From [Eubacterium] siraeum (lineage in GTDB: Bacteria; Bacillota; Clostridia; Oscillospirales; Ruminococcaceae): 64,000 bases of DNA. The DNA lies in the NCBI GenBank assembly GCA_025150425.1, contig CP102281.1, positions 806,001 to 870,000 on the forward strand, in the 5' to 3' direction. The notes under the pieces were generated by a model, which was not told the origin of the DNA, ran no database searches, and worked only from the letters and a program-made list of their open reading frames with translations. The translations under genes were made by a program, and so were the position numbers. Below, in pieces: positions 19,327 to 24,757 of the stretch (position 1 is the first letter of the stretch; each line of letters opens with the position of its first letter).

Positions 19327-19350
19327 TGTATGATAATGAATTGATGATAC

Positions 19351-19395
19351 AAGCGGTTTACTGACGAAAAAATCCACTGCCAGAAAGCAGTGGAT
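19351..19395. repeat. Left copy of a duplicated 45-bp terminator-like segment
   Basis: Contains AATCCACTGC / GCAGTGGATT around a 6-base loop. The same 45 bases, with one change in the loop, recur at 19621-19665, flanking GC-rich repeat copy 1. This copy has lost the T run that follows the right copy. Confidence 0.75.
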
Positions 19396-19396
19396 T

Positions 19397-19636
19397 CAGT
19401 TTGTAGAAAAAGTCTGTATTTATAAAAATAGAGCAAATTCTCTATCCCTATAAGAACGCTTTGTGGGCTTTGCGTCCTTGCAAAGCCTTTGGGCGTTCTA
19501 TCTCGACATCTTTGCCGAAACCCCAAACCCCTTTCCCCGGAAAGGTGCTATATTACTGGGGCTACCGCCCCTAGACCCTGTCGGGGGCTTCGCCCCTGCG
19601 ACCCCATTTTTAATATTTATAAGCGGTTTACTGACG
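19397..19636. repeat. GC-rich intergenic repeat, copy 1 (interrupted)
   Basis: Shares with the copies at 22405 and 24590 the left end TGTAGAAAAAGT, the block CCCCAAACCCC-TTTCCC-GGAAAGG, and, with copy 2, GGGGCTACCGCCCC and GGGGGCTTCGCCCC followed by GACCCCATTTT. Compared with the others it carries about 65 extra bases, which include a nested stem-loop at 19453-19499. It lies between the convergent ftsZ and ABC transporter genes. No gene is visible in 19327-19695. Confidence 0.75.
19453..19499. repeat. Nested stem-loop inside repeat copy 1
   Basis: Outer arms AGAACGC (19453-19459) and GCGTTCT (19493-19499); inner arms GGCTTTGC (19466-19473) and GCAAAGCC (19480-19487). The segment is missing from copies 2 and 3, so it looks like a separate small insertion. 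Confidence 0.6.
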
Positions 19637-19637
19637 A

Positions 19638-19669
19638 AAAAATCCACTGCCCGAAAGCAGTGGATTTTT
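19638..19669. terminator. Bidirectional terminator between ftsZ and the ABC transporter
   Basis: Perfect 13-bp stem AAAAATCCACTGC / GCAGTGGATTTTT (19638-19650, 19657-19669), loop CCGAAA. It has A on one side and T on the other, so it can end transcripts from either direction, including the minus-strand ABC gene that stops at 19696. Confidence 0.85.
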
Positions 19670-19695
19670 GTTTTTACATATCGTTTTATGCCGTC

Positions 19696-22353
19696 TTATT
19701 CGCTTCTCAGTGCGAGGACGGGATCTTTCTTAGCTGCATAGTGCGAGGGGATAAGTCCTGCGATAAGTGTAAGGAGCATACTGATAATTACCAGTATTAC
19801 TGCGCCCTGCCACGGCAGTACGCACATACCTGAAATGCCTGTGAGGTTGTAAACTATAGCGTTTGCGGGGATAAGCAGAAGCAGAGTTACTCCGATACCG
19901 ATAGCGCCTGCGGCAAAGCCGACAATAAGCGTTTCTGCGTTGAACACACGGGAAATATCTCTCTTGCTTGCGCCCATAGCACGAAGTATGCCGATCTCCT
20001 TTGTACGCTCAAGCACGGAAATGTAGGTGATGATGCCTATCATTATAGATGATACGACAAGCGAGATTGCTACAAAGGCGATAAGGATAACGCTTATTGC
20101 GTCGATTATCGTTGATACCGAGGTCATCATCAGTCCGACAATATCCGTATACTCAATCTTGAGGTTTTCGTTGCCGTCGGCTTTGACTTTATCGTTATAA
20201 GTGCTGATTATTTCTTCGATTTTTTCCTTTGCGTCAAAGTCCTTCGGATAGATGCTTATCATACTCGGCTCGTCAAGAGAGGCGACGCCGAGAAGCGTCA
20301 TATTACCGTCATAAGTAGCTTCGGATTCGGTGCTCATCTGCTTAGCGAAAGCGTCGGCTATCTGCTGTTCGGTCATGCCCATCTGCTGTGCCTGCTGAAG
20401 CTGTGACATAATTTCTGCCTGCTTTTCCTCGGGCAGTGTTGCGATATATGCCTTTATATCATCCATTGTGACAGCCTTTTTATCCTCGTCCTTTGCAAAT
20501 TCCTTGCCGGTGAAAATATCAGTGTCGGGAGAATTTTTCTGCTCCTTTACAACCTCGCTGTCATTTACCTTGTTTACAAGATACTCTGTAAGAGCGTGGG
20601 TGTAGCCTATTGCGGATGAAGAGCTTGACGACATTATGCTGTTCTCTTCGGGCTTTATAATGCCGACAACCTTTATAGGCTCGGCATCCTCGACAACCTT
20701 TGTCATATAAATCTTGTCATCGCTCTTGTCTGTCCAGATACCGTTTTCCTTTTCGTAGAATTCTGGGTTCGTCACAAGTCTGAATTCAAGTCCGAGAAGT
20801 TCATCGTATGTGTAGGTCTGTAATTTGCTTGTGAAGTCGACCTTTTCGTTATTGTTGCTCATAGCGCTTTTTACTGCATTGACAAGCTCGTCGCTGTCCA
20901 TAAGTCCCATACAGTAAAGGCTGTAGTCGGAAATCTCGTTATCCTTGTTTACCATTACGACAACTTCATTGTAAGCACTCGGCATTCTTCCTGCAAGCAC
21001 CTTATACTGCTCGTTTAACAGCTTATCATTGTCAAGAAGCTCTGTCCAGGTGTCATAGCTTGTGCTTACAACGTTGCTCATAAGCTGTGAGTCGTACATT
21101 GCGTTAGTCATACCCATATCTTCAAACAGGGTAGCGGGGTTTACCTGAATTATGCCTTTATCCTTATCGTTCCTGAAAATATTGAGCGGAGTGGAATAGC
21201 CGTACTTTATATCGCTGACATAATCGTTTATTTCTTTTCCGTCATTTTCAAGATAGGTTTTAAAGCTCTTTAAATCATTGGATTTAAGCTGGGTGAGCAT
21301 GGAGTTTACCATACTGCCCATTATATTGTTCGAATGTATCTTGCCGTCATCGGTGCTGTCACTCTTGTTTTCCTTCATCATTGACGTCATCATAGAGGTC
21401 ATATCCATAGAATTGCGTGAAATGGATATGGGGTAGCTTGCGAGCGTTTCCTCCTCGACCGATTTAATATAAAGCTGTGCGCCGCTCGATATTGACAGGA
21501 TAAGCGCTATGCCGATAATACCTATGCTTCCTGCAAAAGAGGTCATAAACGTTCTGCCCTTTTTGGTCATAAGATTATTAAGGCTGAGCGACAGAGCGGT
21601 AAGGTAGGACATTGACGGCTTCTTCGCCTTCTTTCCCTTGCCCTTTTTATTCTCGATAGGCTCGACAATGTTACGGTCATAAGGGTTTGTGTCATCGACT
21701 ACCTTACCGTCAAGAAGTCTTATTATTCTGTTTGAATATTTTTCGGCAAGCTCGGGGTTATGCGTTACCATAATTATCAGCTTATCTTTGGATATTTCCT
21801 TTAAAAGCTCCATTATCTGAACGCTGGTTTCGCTGTCAAGTGCACCTGTCGGCTCATCGGCAAGAAGTATATCGGGGTCGTTTACAAGCGCTCTTGCGAT
21901 GGCAACTCTCTGCATCTGACCGCCCGACATCTGATTAGGCTTCTTTTTCAGCTGGTCGCCAAGTCCGACCTTAACAAGCGCTTCCTTTGCTCTTTGTCTT
22001 CTTTCGGACTTTGACACGCCCGACAGAGTCAGTGCAAGCTCTACATTTGAAAGCACCGTCTGGTGCGGTATCAGATTATAGCTCTGGAATACGAATCCGA
22101 TCGAGTGATTGCGGTATGTATCCCAATCTGCGCTTTTGAATTCCTTTGTGGATTTTCCGCCGATGATAAGGTCGCCATCGGTGTATCTGTCAAGACCGCC
22201 TATAATGTTTAAAAGCGTGGTCTTGCCGCATCCCGACTGACCGAGTACAGACACGAACTCGCTTTCACGGAAGTCAATGCTGACGCCTCTGAGTGCGTGG
22301 ACCTTTTCGTTTCCGATTTTATAATCCTTTGTTATGTTTTTCAGTTGTAGCAT
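19696..22353 (-). CDS. Fused ABC transporter (LolD-like ATPase plus FtsX/MacB-type permease)
   Basis: An 885-residue protein joining an ATPase and a permease. Residues 1-230 are a LolD/MacB-type ATPase: GQSGCGKTTLLNIIGG, QMSGGQMQRVAIARAL and ILLADEPTGALDS. A Lys-rich linker (KKGKGKKAKK) leads to a first membrane helix (about 270-295), a large external domain of about 430 residues, and three C-terminal helices of the FtsX type ending in PSHYAAKKDPVLALRSE. Such proteins act as mechanotransmission or antimicrobial-peptide detoxification systems. The two-component genes upstream on the same strand suggest regulated expression, but repeat copy 2 separates them. GGACAAAACG-type spacing before the ATG gives a weak ribosome-binding site. 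Confidence 0.9.
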   Translation of the reverse strand: MLQLKNITKDYKIGNEKVHALRGVSIDFRESEFVSVLGQSGCGKTTLLNIIGGLDRYTDGDLIIGGKSTKEFKSADWDTYRNHSIGFVFQSYNLIPHQTVLSNVELALTLSGVSKSERRQRAKEALVKVGLGDQLKKKPNQMSGGQMQRVAIARALVNDPDILLADEPTGALDSETSVQIMELLKEISKDKLIIMVTHNPELAEKYSNRIIRLLDGKVVDDTNPYDRNIVEPIENKKGKGKKAKKPSMSYLTALSLSLNNLMTKKGRTFMTSFAGSIGIIGIALILSISSGAQLYIKSVEEETLASYPISISRNSMDMTSMMTSMMKENKSDSTDDGKIHSNNIMGSMVNSMLTQLKSNDLKSFKTYLENDGKEINDYVSDIKYGYSTPLNIFRNDKDKGIIQVNPATLFEDMGMTNAMYDSQLMSNVVSTSYDTWTELLDNDKLLNEQYKVLAGRMPSAYNEVVVMVNKDNEISDYSLYCMGLMDSDELVNAVKSAMSNNNEKVDFTSKLQTYTYDELLGLEFRLVTNPEFYEKENGIWTDKSDDKIYMTKVVEDAEPIKVVGIIKPEENSIMSSSSSSAIGYTHALTEYLVNKVNDSEVVKEQKNSPDTDIFTGKEFAKDEDKKAVTMDDIKAYIATLPEEKQAEIMSQLQQAQQMGMTEQQIADAFAKQMSTESEATYDGNMTLLGVASLDEPSMISIYPKDFDAKEKIEEIISTYNDKVKADGNENLKIEYTDIVGLMMTSVSTIIDAISVILIAFVAISLVVSSIMIGIITYISVLERTKEIGILRAMGASKRDISRVFNAETLIVGFAAGAIGIGVTLLLLIPANAIVYNLTGISGMCVLPWQGAVILVIISMLLTLIAGLIPSHYAAKKDPVLALRSE

Positions 22354-22404
22354 CGTTTTGTCCTTTTCGTAAAGTTTTAAATAATGGGTATAAGATTATT
22401 TTAT

Positions 22405-22580
22405 CAGACTGTAGAAAAAGTCTGTTTTTCCAAAAAAGTGCTTGTTCTCAATCCCTAACCCCAAACCCCTTCCCCGTGGGAAGGGGCTATATTACTGGGG
22501 CTACCGCCCCTAGTCCCTGTCGGGGGCTATGCCCCTGCGACCCCATTTTCGATAAACAAGAGGTTTAACGACAGACTGTA
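22405..22580. repeat. GC-rich intergenic repeat, copy 2
   Basis: About 176 bp between the histidine kinase and ABC genes. It begins CAGACTGTAGAAAAAGTCTG, itself a small hairpin, and ends with a second CAGACTGTA (22572-22580), so the unit is flanked by a 9-bp direct repeat. The core has CCTTCCCC/GGGAAGG, GGGGCTACCGCCCC and GGGGGCTATGCCCC. Confidence 0.75.
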
Positions 22581-22611
22581 TTTTATATTCTGTATCAAAC
22601 AATATTTCGGC

Positions 22612-23742
22612 TTATTTTAAGCCTGCTGTGTTAACGGTATTTAAACTTTTCTTTTTCTTATCTTCTTTTTCGTTTTCTTTGTTTTCAACAGGGAGATAGA
22701 CGGTGAACTGTGTTCCCTTGTTAAGCTCGCTTTTAACACGAATCCTTCCTCCGCACAGCTCAACGATACGCTTTACCATAGCAAGACCCAGCCCGTTGCC
22801 GCCTGTTGCGTGTGAGCTGTCGCCCTGATAGAATTTCTCGAAAATACGTTCTGCGGTGGCTTTATCCATTCCTATGCCGTTATCGGTGACACGCACACGG
22901 ATTTCATTGCTGTTCTTCGGGTTTATGTCAAGGCGTATCTCAATAGTACCGCCGTCCTGAGTGTATTTTATAGCGTTGCCTATAACGTTCAGCCATACTT
23001 GCTTCAGCATTTCGCTGTTGCCGTAATAGTTAAGCTCGCAAAGCTCGGGGATTACCTCCTGATTCTTTGCGCCCCACTGGCTCTGTAACTGCAGAACGCA
23101 TCTGCGAAGCTCCTCGTCAAGAGAGAACTCCTTCTTATCGGTGATTATCTCCTGGTTTTCCAGCTTGTTCAGCATAAGGATATTGCTCGACATATTTATG
23201 AGCCGTTGCGATTCGTTTATGATTATGTCGATATATTCATCCTCCTGCTCCTTTGTAAGACCGCCTTTTTTAAGCTGTTTTGCAAAGCCGTATACGGAAA
23301 CCATAGGAGTTTTGAATTCGTGTGAGAAGTCGTTTATGAAGTCGTTTCTGAAAAGCTCGGTATTGCCAAGCTCCTTTACCATTATGTTGAAATTCTCCTG
23401 TATATGCGAAAGCTCGCTGTTTCCGTTTTCCTCAAGTCTTACCGAAAAATCGCCTTTTGAAACCCTGAGCAGACCCTCCTTGAGATCGTTTAGCGGACGG
23501 AGAAGTATGCCTGACAGCATCGCAGACAGTATACTGCCGATAATTACGCACGAGCAGAGCATTATCAGTGGCATAAGCATAGGTACTACCTCAATATGCT
23601 TCATCAGACCGAAAGCATTGAGGATATTATAGATCATCACGCAGATAATACCTGCGGATACCATTATGAAAAATACGAACAACACAACATAAGCGTTTAT
23701 CGAGCGTAAACGCTTTTCTTCATCGCTTATTCTCTTGTGCAT
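22612..23742 (-). CDS. Two-component sensor histidine kinase
   Basis: A 376-residue membrane kinase. Two hydrophobic segments (about 17-40 and 60-85) flank a very short external loop, so the signal is probably sensed in or at the membrane. A HAMP domain follows (about 85-140). The phosphoacceptor His is in NDFSHEFKTPM, the N box in NVIGNAIKYT, and the G boxes in DNGIGMD and GGNGLGLAMVK. It starts 19 bases after the response regulator. By arrangement it may report on the adjacent fused ABC transporter, as in antimicrobial-peptide sensing modules; that is an inference. Confidence 0.93.
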   Translation of the reverse strand: MHKRISDEEKRLRSINAYVVLFVFFIMVSAGIICVMIYNILNAFGLMKHIEVVPMLMPLIMLCSCVIIGSILSAMLSGILLRPLNDLKEGLLRVSKGDFSVRLEENGNSELSHIQENFNIMVKELGNTELFRNDFINDFSHEFKTPMVSVYGFAKQLKKGGLTKEQEDEYIDIIINESQRLINMSSNILMLNKLENQEIITDKKEFSLDEELRRCVLQLQSQWGAKNQEVIPELCELNYYGNSEMLKQVWLNVIGNAIKYTQDGGTIEIRLDINPKNSNEIRVRVTDNGIGMDKATAERIFEKFYQGDSSHATGGNGLGLAMVKRIVELCGGRIRVKSELNKGTQFTVYLPVENKENEKEDKKKKSLNTVNTAGLK

Positions 23743-23761
23743 TTTATTCCTCCGTTTTAAG

Positions 23762-24439
23762 TCAATGCTGTTTCAGCACAGCCTTGTAGCCAAGCCCTCT
23801 GACAGTTACTATCTCGAAATCCTCGTTGTCACGGAAACGCTCACGCAAGCGGTTGATATGTACGTCTATCGTTCTTTCATCGGTTTCGGTTTCCATATCC
23901 CACAGTTCGTCCATAAGCTGACGGCGTGTGAATATTTTGTTCTGATAGCTGAGCAATTTGAACAGCAGCATAAATTCCTTGTTGGGAAGCTCGTGGGTGA
24001 CACCGCCGCAGGTAACTGTAAGCGCATCATAGTCAAGCACGGTATTGCCTGCGTGGAGCTTATGCTCGTTGGCAATGTTACTGCGGCGCAGGAGTGCGGA
24101 TATGCGAAGGAGCATTTCCTCGTCATCAACGGGCTTTACCATATAATCGTCCGTTCCTGCACGGAATCCCGCAATTTTATCTGCCGAGGTTTCTCTTGCG
24201 GTCACCATAAGAACAGGGGTGTTGCAACCGCCCTCACGAAGCGTTTTAACAAATTCGTAGCCGTCCATACGGGGCATCATTACGTCAAGCAGGATAAGAT
24301 CAACGTGCTGTCTGTCGAGTATGTCAAGTGCGTCTATGCCGTCTACGGCAGGTACCGGCTCGTAGCCGTTCTGCTTAAGCACTGTGCACATCAGTTTTCT
24401 TGTGTTTGTATCATCTTCCGCAACCATTATATGAAACAT
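23762..24439 (-). CDS. OmpR/PhoB-family response regulator
   Basis: DNA-binding partner of the kinase, 225 aa. The receiver domain has AEDD near the N-terminus, the phosphoacceptor Asp in ILLDVMMPRMDGYEF, the Thr in MVTARE and the Lys in MVKPVDDEE. A winged-helix output domain follows (about 125-222), with RRQLMDELWDMETETDERTIDVHINRLR. GGAGG lies just before the ATG at 24439. A TATAAT-like box at 24480-24485 upstream lacks a good -35 box. Confidence 0.95.
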   Translation of the reverse strand: MFHIMVAEDDTNTRKLMCTVLKQNGYEPVPAVDGIDALDILDRQHVDLILLDVMMPRMDGYEFVKTLREGGCNTPVLMVTARETSADKIAGFRAGTDDYMVKPVDDEEMLLRISALLRRSNIANEHKLHAGNTVLDYDALTVTCGGVTHELPNKEFMLLFKLLSYQNKIFTRRQLMDELWDMETETDERTIDVHINRLRERFRDNEDFEIVTVRGLGYKAVLKQH

Positions 24440-24589
24440 ATTATTTCCTCCGTTTCTTTAACCGGTGTTAATTACTTATATTATAGTTTTCTTCATTTAA
24501 CCGAATATAAACCGCCTGCCGTTTGCCGATATAAACAAATACGCCCTTGCCGCAGATTGTTCCTGCGTTACGCAAAGGCATATTTATAT

Positions 24590-24757
24590 CAGCTTGTAGA
24601 AAAAGTACGCTTTTAATAAAATAGATTAAGTTTTCAATCCCTATCCCCAAACCCCTTTCCCTCGGAAAGGGGCTGAGTGTGGGGCTGCCGCCCTCACCCC
24701 GCTTGGGGCTTCGCCCCAAACCCCATTTTAAAATTGTATAGATTTATCTACAGGCTG
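24590..24757. repeat. GC-rich intergenic repeat, copy 3, with terminal inverted repeats
   Basis: Begins CAGCTTGTAGA (24590-24600) and ends TCTACAGGCTG (24747-24757), an inverted pair matching at 10 of 11 positions. The inside has CCCCAAACCCCTTTCCC / GGAAAGGGG and GGGGCTTCGCCCC. It fills most of the gap between the response regulator and the DHHW gene. A long imperfect stem lies immediately to its left (24530-24590). Confidence 0.75.

Follow-up and report, generated by a model that had tools for sequence, protein, structure and literature searches.

The intergenic repeats of the window, as the whole analysed stretch of 64,000 nucleotides of [Eubacterium] siraeum is called here, are most probably MITEs of an IS1182-family clade that targets the palindromes of terminators and duplicates the whole hairpin. 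The preliminary description of this DNA had proposed mobile repeats as one of its readings, which is strongly supported, as the ends are common, the copies many and the targets duplicated, a relative has empty sites, and autonomous transposons with the same ends exist elsewhere. This would explain a class of terminator-associated intergenic repeats in gut Clostridia, and twin terminators around a repeat can be an insertion scar.

Copies in the Window and Their Ends

Copy 1 (19397..19636, + strand; the right boundary, ~19636, was set by eye by aligning with the other copies) has an intact left end, CAGTTTGTAGAAAAA, and a decayed right end, and contains an extra hairpin module at 19452-19519. 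It sits in a 49-nt direct repeat (19348-19396 / 19618-19666, 96% identity), within which a terminator-type stem-loop is duplicated, namely as the left hairpin of the copy at 19368..19396 and as its right hairpin at 19638..19666 (neither assigned to a strand), the latter followed by a T-rich tail and matched by the terminator-like scan at 19638-19669. This hairpin duplication (19368-19396 / 19638-19666) had been overlooked in the preliminary description. The left part of the 49-nt repeat, at 19348..19367 (+) beside the left hairpin, resembles a decayed right end, and we infer that it is the remnant of an earlier element's right end.

Copy 2 (22405..22578, +) is a complete element of 174 bp with 11/15 matching positions in its terminal inverted repeat (TIR), in a target without a hairpin. 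It is abutted by an 8-bp duplication, TATTTTAT, at 22397..22404 on the left and at 22579..22586 on the right (no strand assigned), the significance of which is that of the short-duplication class as a whole (6/24 elements vs. 0/552 mismatched pairs). The 9-bp direct repeat CAGACTGTA noticed earlier around this copy is rejected as a target duplication; it is the TIR tip CAGnCTG, and reads as a direct repeat because this tip is itself nearly palindromic. Copy 3 (24590..24757, +) is likewise complete, with 168 bp and a TIR matching at 13/15 positions. Its flanks have ATTTATA in common only at a 1-nt offset, which makes a target duplication uncertain. Exceptionally, copies 2 and 3 lie at AT-rich sites with no strong hairpin.

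The two sequence blocks that had been ascribed to all three copies are indeed exact in each, TGTAGAAAAAGT at 19402, 22410 and 24595, and CCCCAAACCCC at 19521, 22459 and 24645, with a second one within copy 3 at 24714; the stems described for the repeats are also present. With at most one mismatch allowed, four matches of CCCCAAACCCC were reached in 0/100 shuffles, whereas TGTAGAAAAAGT alone at up to two mismatches is not rare (nine in the window vs. a shuffle mean of 7.3); the telling signal is the exact, co-occurring blocks, not TGTAGAAAAAGT by itself. Comparison with other copies in the same genome places the ends differently from the preliminary description, as the true 3' end lies 28-29 bp past the ACCCCATTTT block. 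Typical copies start with CAGnnTGT[A/C]GAAAAAGT and end with TTT[A/T]TCGACAGnCTG, which gives a 15-bp TIR with the consensus CAGnnTGT[A/C]GAAAAA. The 11-bp TIR (10/11) reported for copy 3 is there as a match, but it falls short of the real TIR of 15 bp. Similarly, the common orientation seen for the copies holds in the window but not genome-wide, where 26/53 motif copies are forward and 27/53 reverse.

Copy Number, Kinds and Spread

In the 2.69-Mb genome of the window (G000), 50 stretches match the core of copy 2, and the genome-wide count that had been suggested as a check gave 53 exact copies of TGTAGAAAAAGT, against four for the reversed pattern. The right-end pattern TTTWTCKACARNCTG has 93 occurrences in G000 and 145 in the related genome G024, with reversed controls giving 0 in each. 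From 79 pieces of G000 (345,706 bases including overlaps, window included), 61 two-ended, non-coding elements of 151-667 bp were collected; they were drawn from stretches around matches and are not a census. Short, with terminal inverted repeats and in many copies, the repeats of the window have the features of MITEs. The exact right-end pattern is present in at least one copy in 43/71 same-genus genomes and in at least 11 copies in 16/71 (reversed control at most four per genome), while the copy-2 core was found in 2/41 genomes, G000 and G024, with ten G024 copies of equal score to the copy-2-core query. The bursts of ends are patchy between species. Under the common ends the interiors differ, with a GC-rich kind as in the window (~175 bp, more where extra hairpin modules are present) and another of ~500-670 bp. 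According to crude ORF calls for 60 elements (copy 3 left out), 34/60 lie between tandem, 15/60 between convergent and 11/60 between divergent genes, and 2/60 lie across an ORF call.

The extra hairpin modules, of ~70 nt, occur at a few fixed places in many copies (window 19452-19519, as well as L013, L015, L023, L053, L060, L064, and L070), with loops such as GCAAGGATGC, GCACGATGC and the reverse complements of these. At L060 and L070, one module seems to have entered the apical hairpin of a second one, as though the modules themselves targeted hairpins. In an alignment of 28 sequences (24 simple G000 copies, copy 3 and three G024 copies), the copies are mosaics with varied combinations of 5' leader, central stem and 3' tail, which suggests recombination between copies. 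G024 harbors a second family of ~240-310 bp (L095, L096, and L101) with the same ends, in which the left end is itself a near-perfect hairpin of 34 nt, and at which several G024 contigs break; at L031 and L032, the 174-bp element stands in place of this 34-nt hairpin.

Duplicated Hairpins as Target

Flanking duplications scoring at least 10 were found for 40/61 elements, compared with 6/3,660 mismatched flank pairs, of which at least three are neighboring elements with a common site. In 37/61 elements the duplication is long (15-33 bp, score 15 or more). The arms of these 37 duplications are complementary to a mean of 0.92, as opposed to 0.46 for shuffled letters, and reach at least 0.9 in 23/37 vs. 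22/1,850 shuffled; a clear terminator-type hairpin is present in 33/37, and two others are short AT-rich palindromes. The 19 duplications that could be oriented have on average 4.6/8 bases T after the right copy and 4.6/8 A before the left copy, and are thus terminator-like on both sides, without orientation bias. In G024, where elements were taken from selected stretches only, 13/16 of those examined lie in a hairpin duplication.

Among the 24 elements without a long duplication, six are abutted on both sides by an exact repeat of 7-13 bp, as opposed to none of the 552 mismatched pairs, and four of these six fall outside the 40 elements scoring at least 10. No duplication, whether long or short and exact, was found at 18/61 elements, three of which lie between two unrelated hairpins. 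Two different hairpins abut the MITEs at L024, L057, and L090 and the insertion sequences (described below) at L135, L152, L171, L173, and L195, which could be due to recombination between copies or to terminator-to-terminator deletion; at a few elements, e.g., L003 and L064, the flanking hairpins are related but diverged, and the remaining elements give no clear picture. Arrays of the form hairpin-element-hairpin-element-hairpin were observed at L046 (G000 2226202-2226918) and L012 (1336733-1337497), and in the L046 array the loops of the first and third hairpins are reverse complements of each other, as would result from an inversion of the palindrome.

Empty Sites in Relatives

The closest relative of G000 by FtsZ among 71 genomes is G047 (90% identical). 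Nine queries, each joining the host flanks around one hairpin copy, were picked for close flanking genes among the elements with duplications and searched in seven genomes. In G047, the search matched six of the nine across the junction at 81-89% identity; in five of these the match covers the full query, give or take 1-2 bases, and in the sixth (L025) most of it. Alignments through all six sites (80.7-89.4%), none of which corresponds to a window copy, contain one hairpin and no element, with the stem largely kept and a different loop; the expectation of empty sites in relatives is thereby borne out. At the L007 site, a single hairpin is found in G024 also (72.7%). As six sites had the hairpin but no element, the second hairpin copy is best read as an insertion product. 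Scarce copies, a lack of common ends and a lack of sites polymorphic among strains had been named in advance as speaking against mobility; this comparison was run in part, between species rather than strains, and did not give that outcome.

Other sites are more complex. The L060 site of G047 has a single hairpin with synteny on the right half only, the same terminator as at L004 is filled in G047 too, across a contig break, and at the L013 site a different hairpin carries an element of its own. The terminator at G000 1728985 is also filled in G047 (end of contig C12 / start of C30; L266 and L265) with different inner modules, so that it is either an old insertion or was hit twice. In a comparison of the region downstream of ftsZ in 15 genomes, G047 has no element after ftsZ; copy 1 is located past the ftsZ terminator, in a hairpin close to the converging gene, and therefore this comparison gives no clean empty site for a window copy.

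The empty sites bear on two alternative explanations. As most copies are hairpin-flanked on both sides, the hairpins could travel with the element, each copy being a composite with its own flanking terminators. However, the letters of the hairpins vary from site to site, and in G047 the same single hairpin stands in the same place with no element at six of the nine sites; hairpins as part of the element are hence rejected, and we regard the composite structure as extremely improbable. The second alternative, that the repeats are structured RNA or terminator modules kept by selection and copied by recombination, goes back to the preliminary description and can draw on the conserved stems and on a better fold of the element's RNA than of shuffled sequences (z = -3.2, copy 2; -2.5, the copy at L017), although a run of GC palindromes would give the same. 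Covariance, proposed earlier as a check on the stems, amounted to a compensated double change in 1/32 predicted pairs among the 28 sequences, whose low divergence limits this test, and the window has no Rfam match at the gathering threshold, so that structured RNA is rejected as the driver. The patchy bursts between species, the target duplications and the empty sites likewise speak against such modules, and termination modules are unsupported as a cause because the terminators belong to the host target. This explanation is very improbable.

IS1182-Family Transposons With the Same Ends

The Pfam domain PF13751 was found in 12/60 same-genus genomes, and two of the matches (in G065 and G051) are transposase fragments that terminate with an exact inverted repeat and have a hairpin next to it. 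When one genome per species was scanned with both fragments, 63 loci were obtained, 34 of which have both ends and enough flank. Of these two-ended IS1182-family copies, 27/34 lie between duplicated hairpins of 20-35 bp (null 0/1,118). The complete genome of Chakrabartyella piscis contributes 11 of the 63 loci, ten of them among the 27, including two with identical flanks. In the remaining seven, five have different flanks on the two sides, hairpin-like by eye, while L163 has an imperfect hairpin repeat below the threshold and L146 no clear duplication. The ends are of the same type in many copies and differ by 1-2 letters in others, e.g., CAGACTGTCAAAAAA in C. piscis. With NF033551 (cut-off 270), all six full-length proteins tested reach 375-426 bits, compared with 115 for a 157-aa transposase fragment, and PF13751, PF05598, and PF01609 are present in 4/4 partner proteins; the full-length partners are thus predicted by NF033551 to be IS1182-family transposases.

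Within the genus, the copies observed with these ends are fragments, and the two-ended copies are in other genera. G000 has no PF13751 match, and with NF033551 only fragments of 49 and 37 bits, which lack these ends. A resident G000 transposase was rejected as a candidate, since the matches are broken fragments at ~242979-243902 without these ends; no autonomous partner with the same ends as the window repeats was thus found in their own genome. NF033551 gave no match in G024, G041, G045, and G047, which are rich in ends. Five same-genus genomes have NF033551 matches over the cut-off, with no matching ends in the stretches read, and as far as these stretches go their IS1182 genes belong to other elements. 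Because G000 has no matching transposase, the elements look orphaned, or served by a transposase that has since been lost.

The same gap leaves some room for a different mover, either a transposase of another family that has the same ends by chance or an HUH enzyme that seeks hairpins in single strands, as for REP elements. A small ORF near the element at L063 (G000 ~1292.8-1293.3 kb region) looks, by eye only, like an IS200-type TnpA. However, the same ends occur together with the same unusual hairpin duplication in the IS1182-family elements, and HUH elements are not known to have such inverted repeats and duplications, which makes another mover improbable. IS1182-family transposases would instead have moved these elements in trans.

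Proposed Mechanism

The geometry of the duplications is informative as to how the target may be recognized. A set of 75 distinct duplications (37 from G000, 13 from G024 and 25 from insertion sequences, the latter being the 27 less two with repeated flanks and thus preselected for duplication) contains a hairpin in 70. In these 70, the dyad is exactly central in 55 and at most 1 nt off in 69, and the outermost G-C pair is set in from the edge of the duplication by 1-3 nt on the left in 53/70 and on the right in 52/70. The length of the duplication correlates moderately with that of the hairpin (r = 0.54, n = 70). No letters are common among the target stems, and DNA shape, not sequence, is the suggested target.

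Two ways of using such a target can be considered for the same elements and the same transposase family. The palindrome could be bound in its linear form, with a dimer reading the two-fold symmetry of the duplex and cutting symmetrically at a flexible distance, without a cruciform. Symmetric binding would center the duplications on the dyad as observed, and the length tracking the hairpin only at r = 0.54 also agrees with it, yet the stems have no letters in common, and a range from 7-13 bp elsewhere to 20-35 bp at hairpins is wide for a fixed protein frame; we thus see this as possible but unlikely. Since one fixed stagger cannot give both the 7-13 bp of plain sites and the 20-35 bp of hairpins, the simplest reading is an extruded palindrome with the ends of the element joined across its base. 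On balance, we favor a transposase whose site of integration is the cruciform junction of an extruded terminator, where the shape of the DNA and not the enzyme would set the length of the duplication (~7-13 bp on ordinary DNA, the whole palindrome of 20-35 bp on a hairpin) and where terminators, being doubled and not destroyed, would serve as renewable safe landing sites.

In the favored model, a DDE transposase of the IS1182-family clade would recognize the ends CAGnnTGT[A/C]GAAAAA and move the element in trans, with a preference for palindromes, chiefly the stem-loops of rho-independent terminators. The ends of the element would be joined to opposite strands, one at each foot of the palindrome, and repair would copy the whole stem-loop, so that the element comes to lie between two complete hairpins. 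Away from hairpins, an ordinary duplication of 7-13 bp would result, as may have happened at copy 2 (8 bp). As a complete terminator stays on each outer side, insertion should cost little and would be tolerated, and transcription may include the element in a 3' UTR. The natural series of hairpins makes the use of a cruciform by the transposase directly testable.

Comparison With Known Systems

Terminator hairpins are also neighbored by group IIC introns, which insert beside them; these are retroelements with a ribozyme, and lack terminal inverted repeats and target duplication. For the IS1182 family, long repeats are listed in ISfinder. A literature search, which covered sources other than subscription papers and ISfinder, found in the parts covered no description of these elements, of such IS1182 MITEs or of hairpin-duplicating IS1182 insertions.

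The prokaryotic MITEs RUP, BOX, and SPRITE are short, non-coding, intergenic and present in many copies, with some nested (PMC10969869), and the elements described here are like them in all of these respects, including insertion into each other. The targeting of terminators with duplication of the whole hairpin is absent from the description in the parts of PMC10969869 covered, and SPRITE resembles a terminator itself, whereas the terminators here are those of the host and serve as the target.

The autonomous partners score above the curated NF033551 cut-off and in this respect resemble the IS1182 family, for which the earlier data in the parts of the sources covered are short or no duplications, such as 4 bp in two copies of ISCaa15 (PMC3196728), in contrast to the whole hairpins duplicated here. 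Some members target palindromic sequences, which is given without detail as quoted from Siguier 2015 (PMC4923244; PMC5678879). In a large survey, IS1182 elements are over-represented between convergent genes, which fits with low-cost insertion at terminators (PMC9208149). A close parallel is that of IS1272 and TnSha1 from staphylococci, which share the IS1182-family transposase and the hairpin targets; the latter have little sequence in common, several are confirmed terminators, and a cruciform has been proposed as the target (PMC4923244; PMC5678879). Insertion of IS1272 and TnSha1, however, removes all or part of the stem-loop and gives no target duplication (PMC4923244; PMC5678879), whereas the elements here duplicate the whole stem-loop; a replacement of this kind was not seen, the hairpin being present on both sides when the site is filled and once when it is empty. 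The cruciform that is the likely target here would correspond to the hypothetical pathway b drawn for IS1272, for which the parts of that paper covered give no example of a duplication (PMC5678879). What is a hypothetical branch in the published IS1272 model is met by dozens of natural whole-hairpin duplications by IS1182-type elements, six of them with empty sites.
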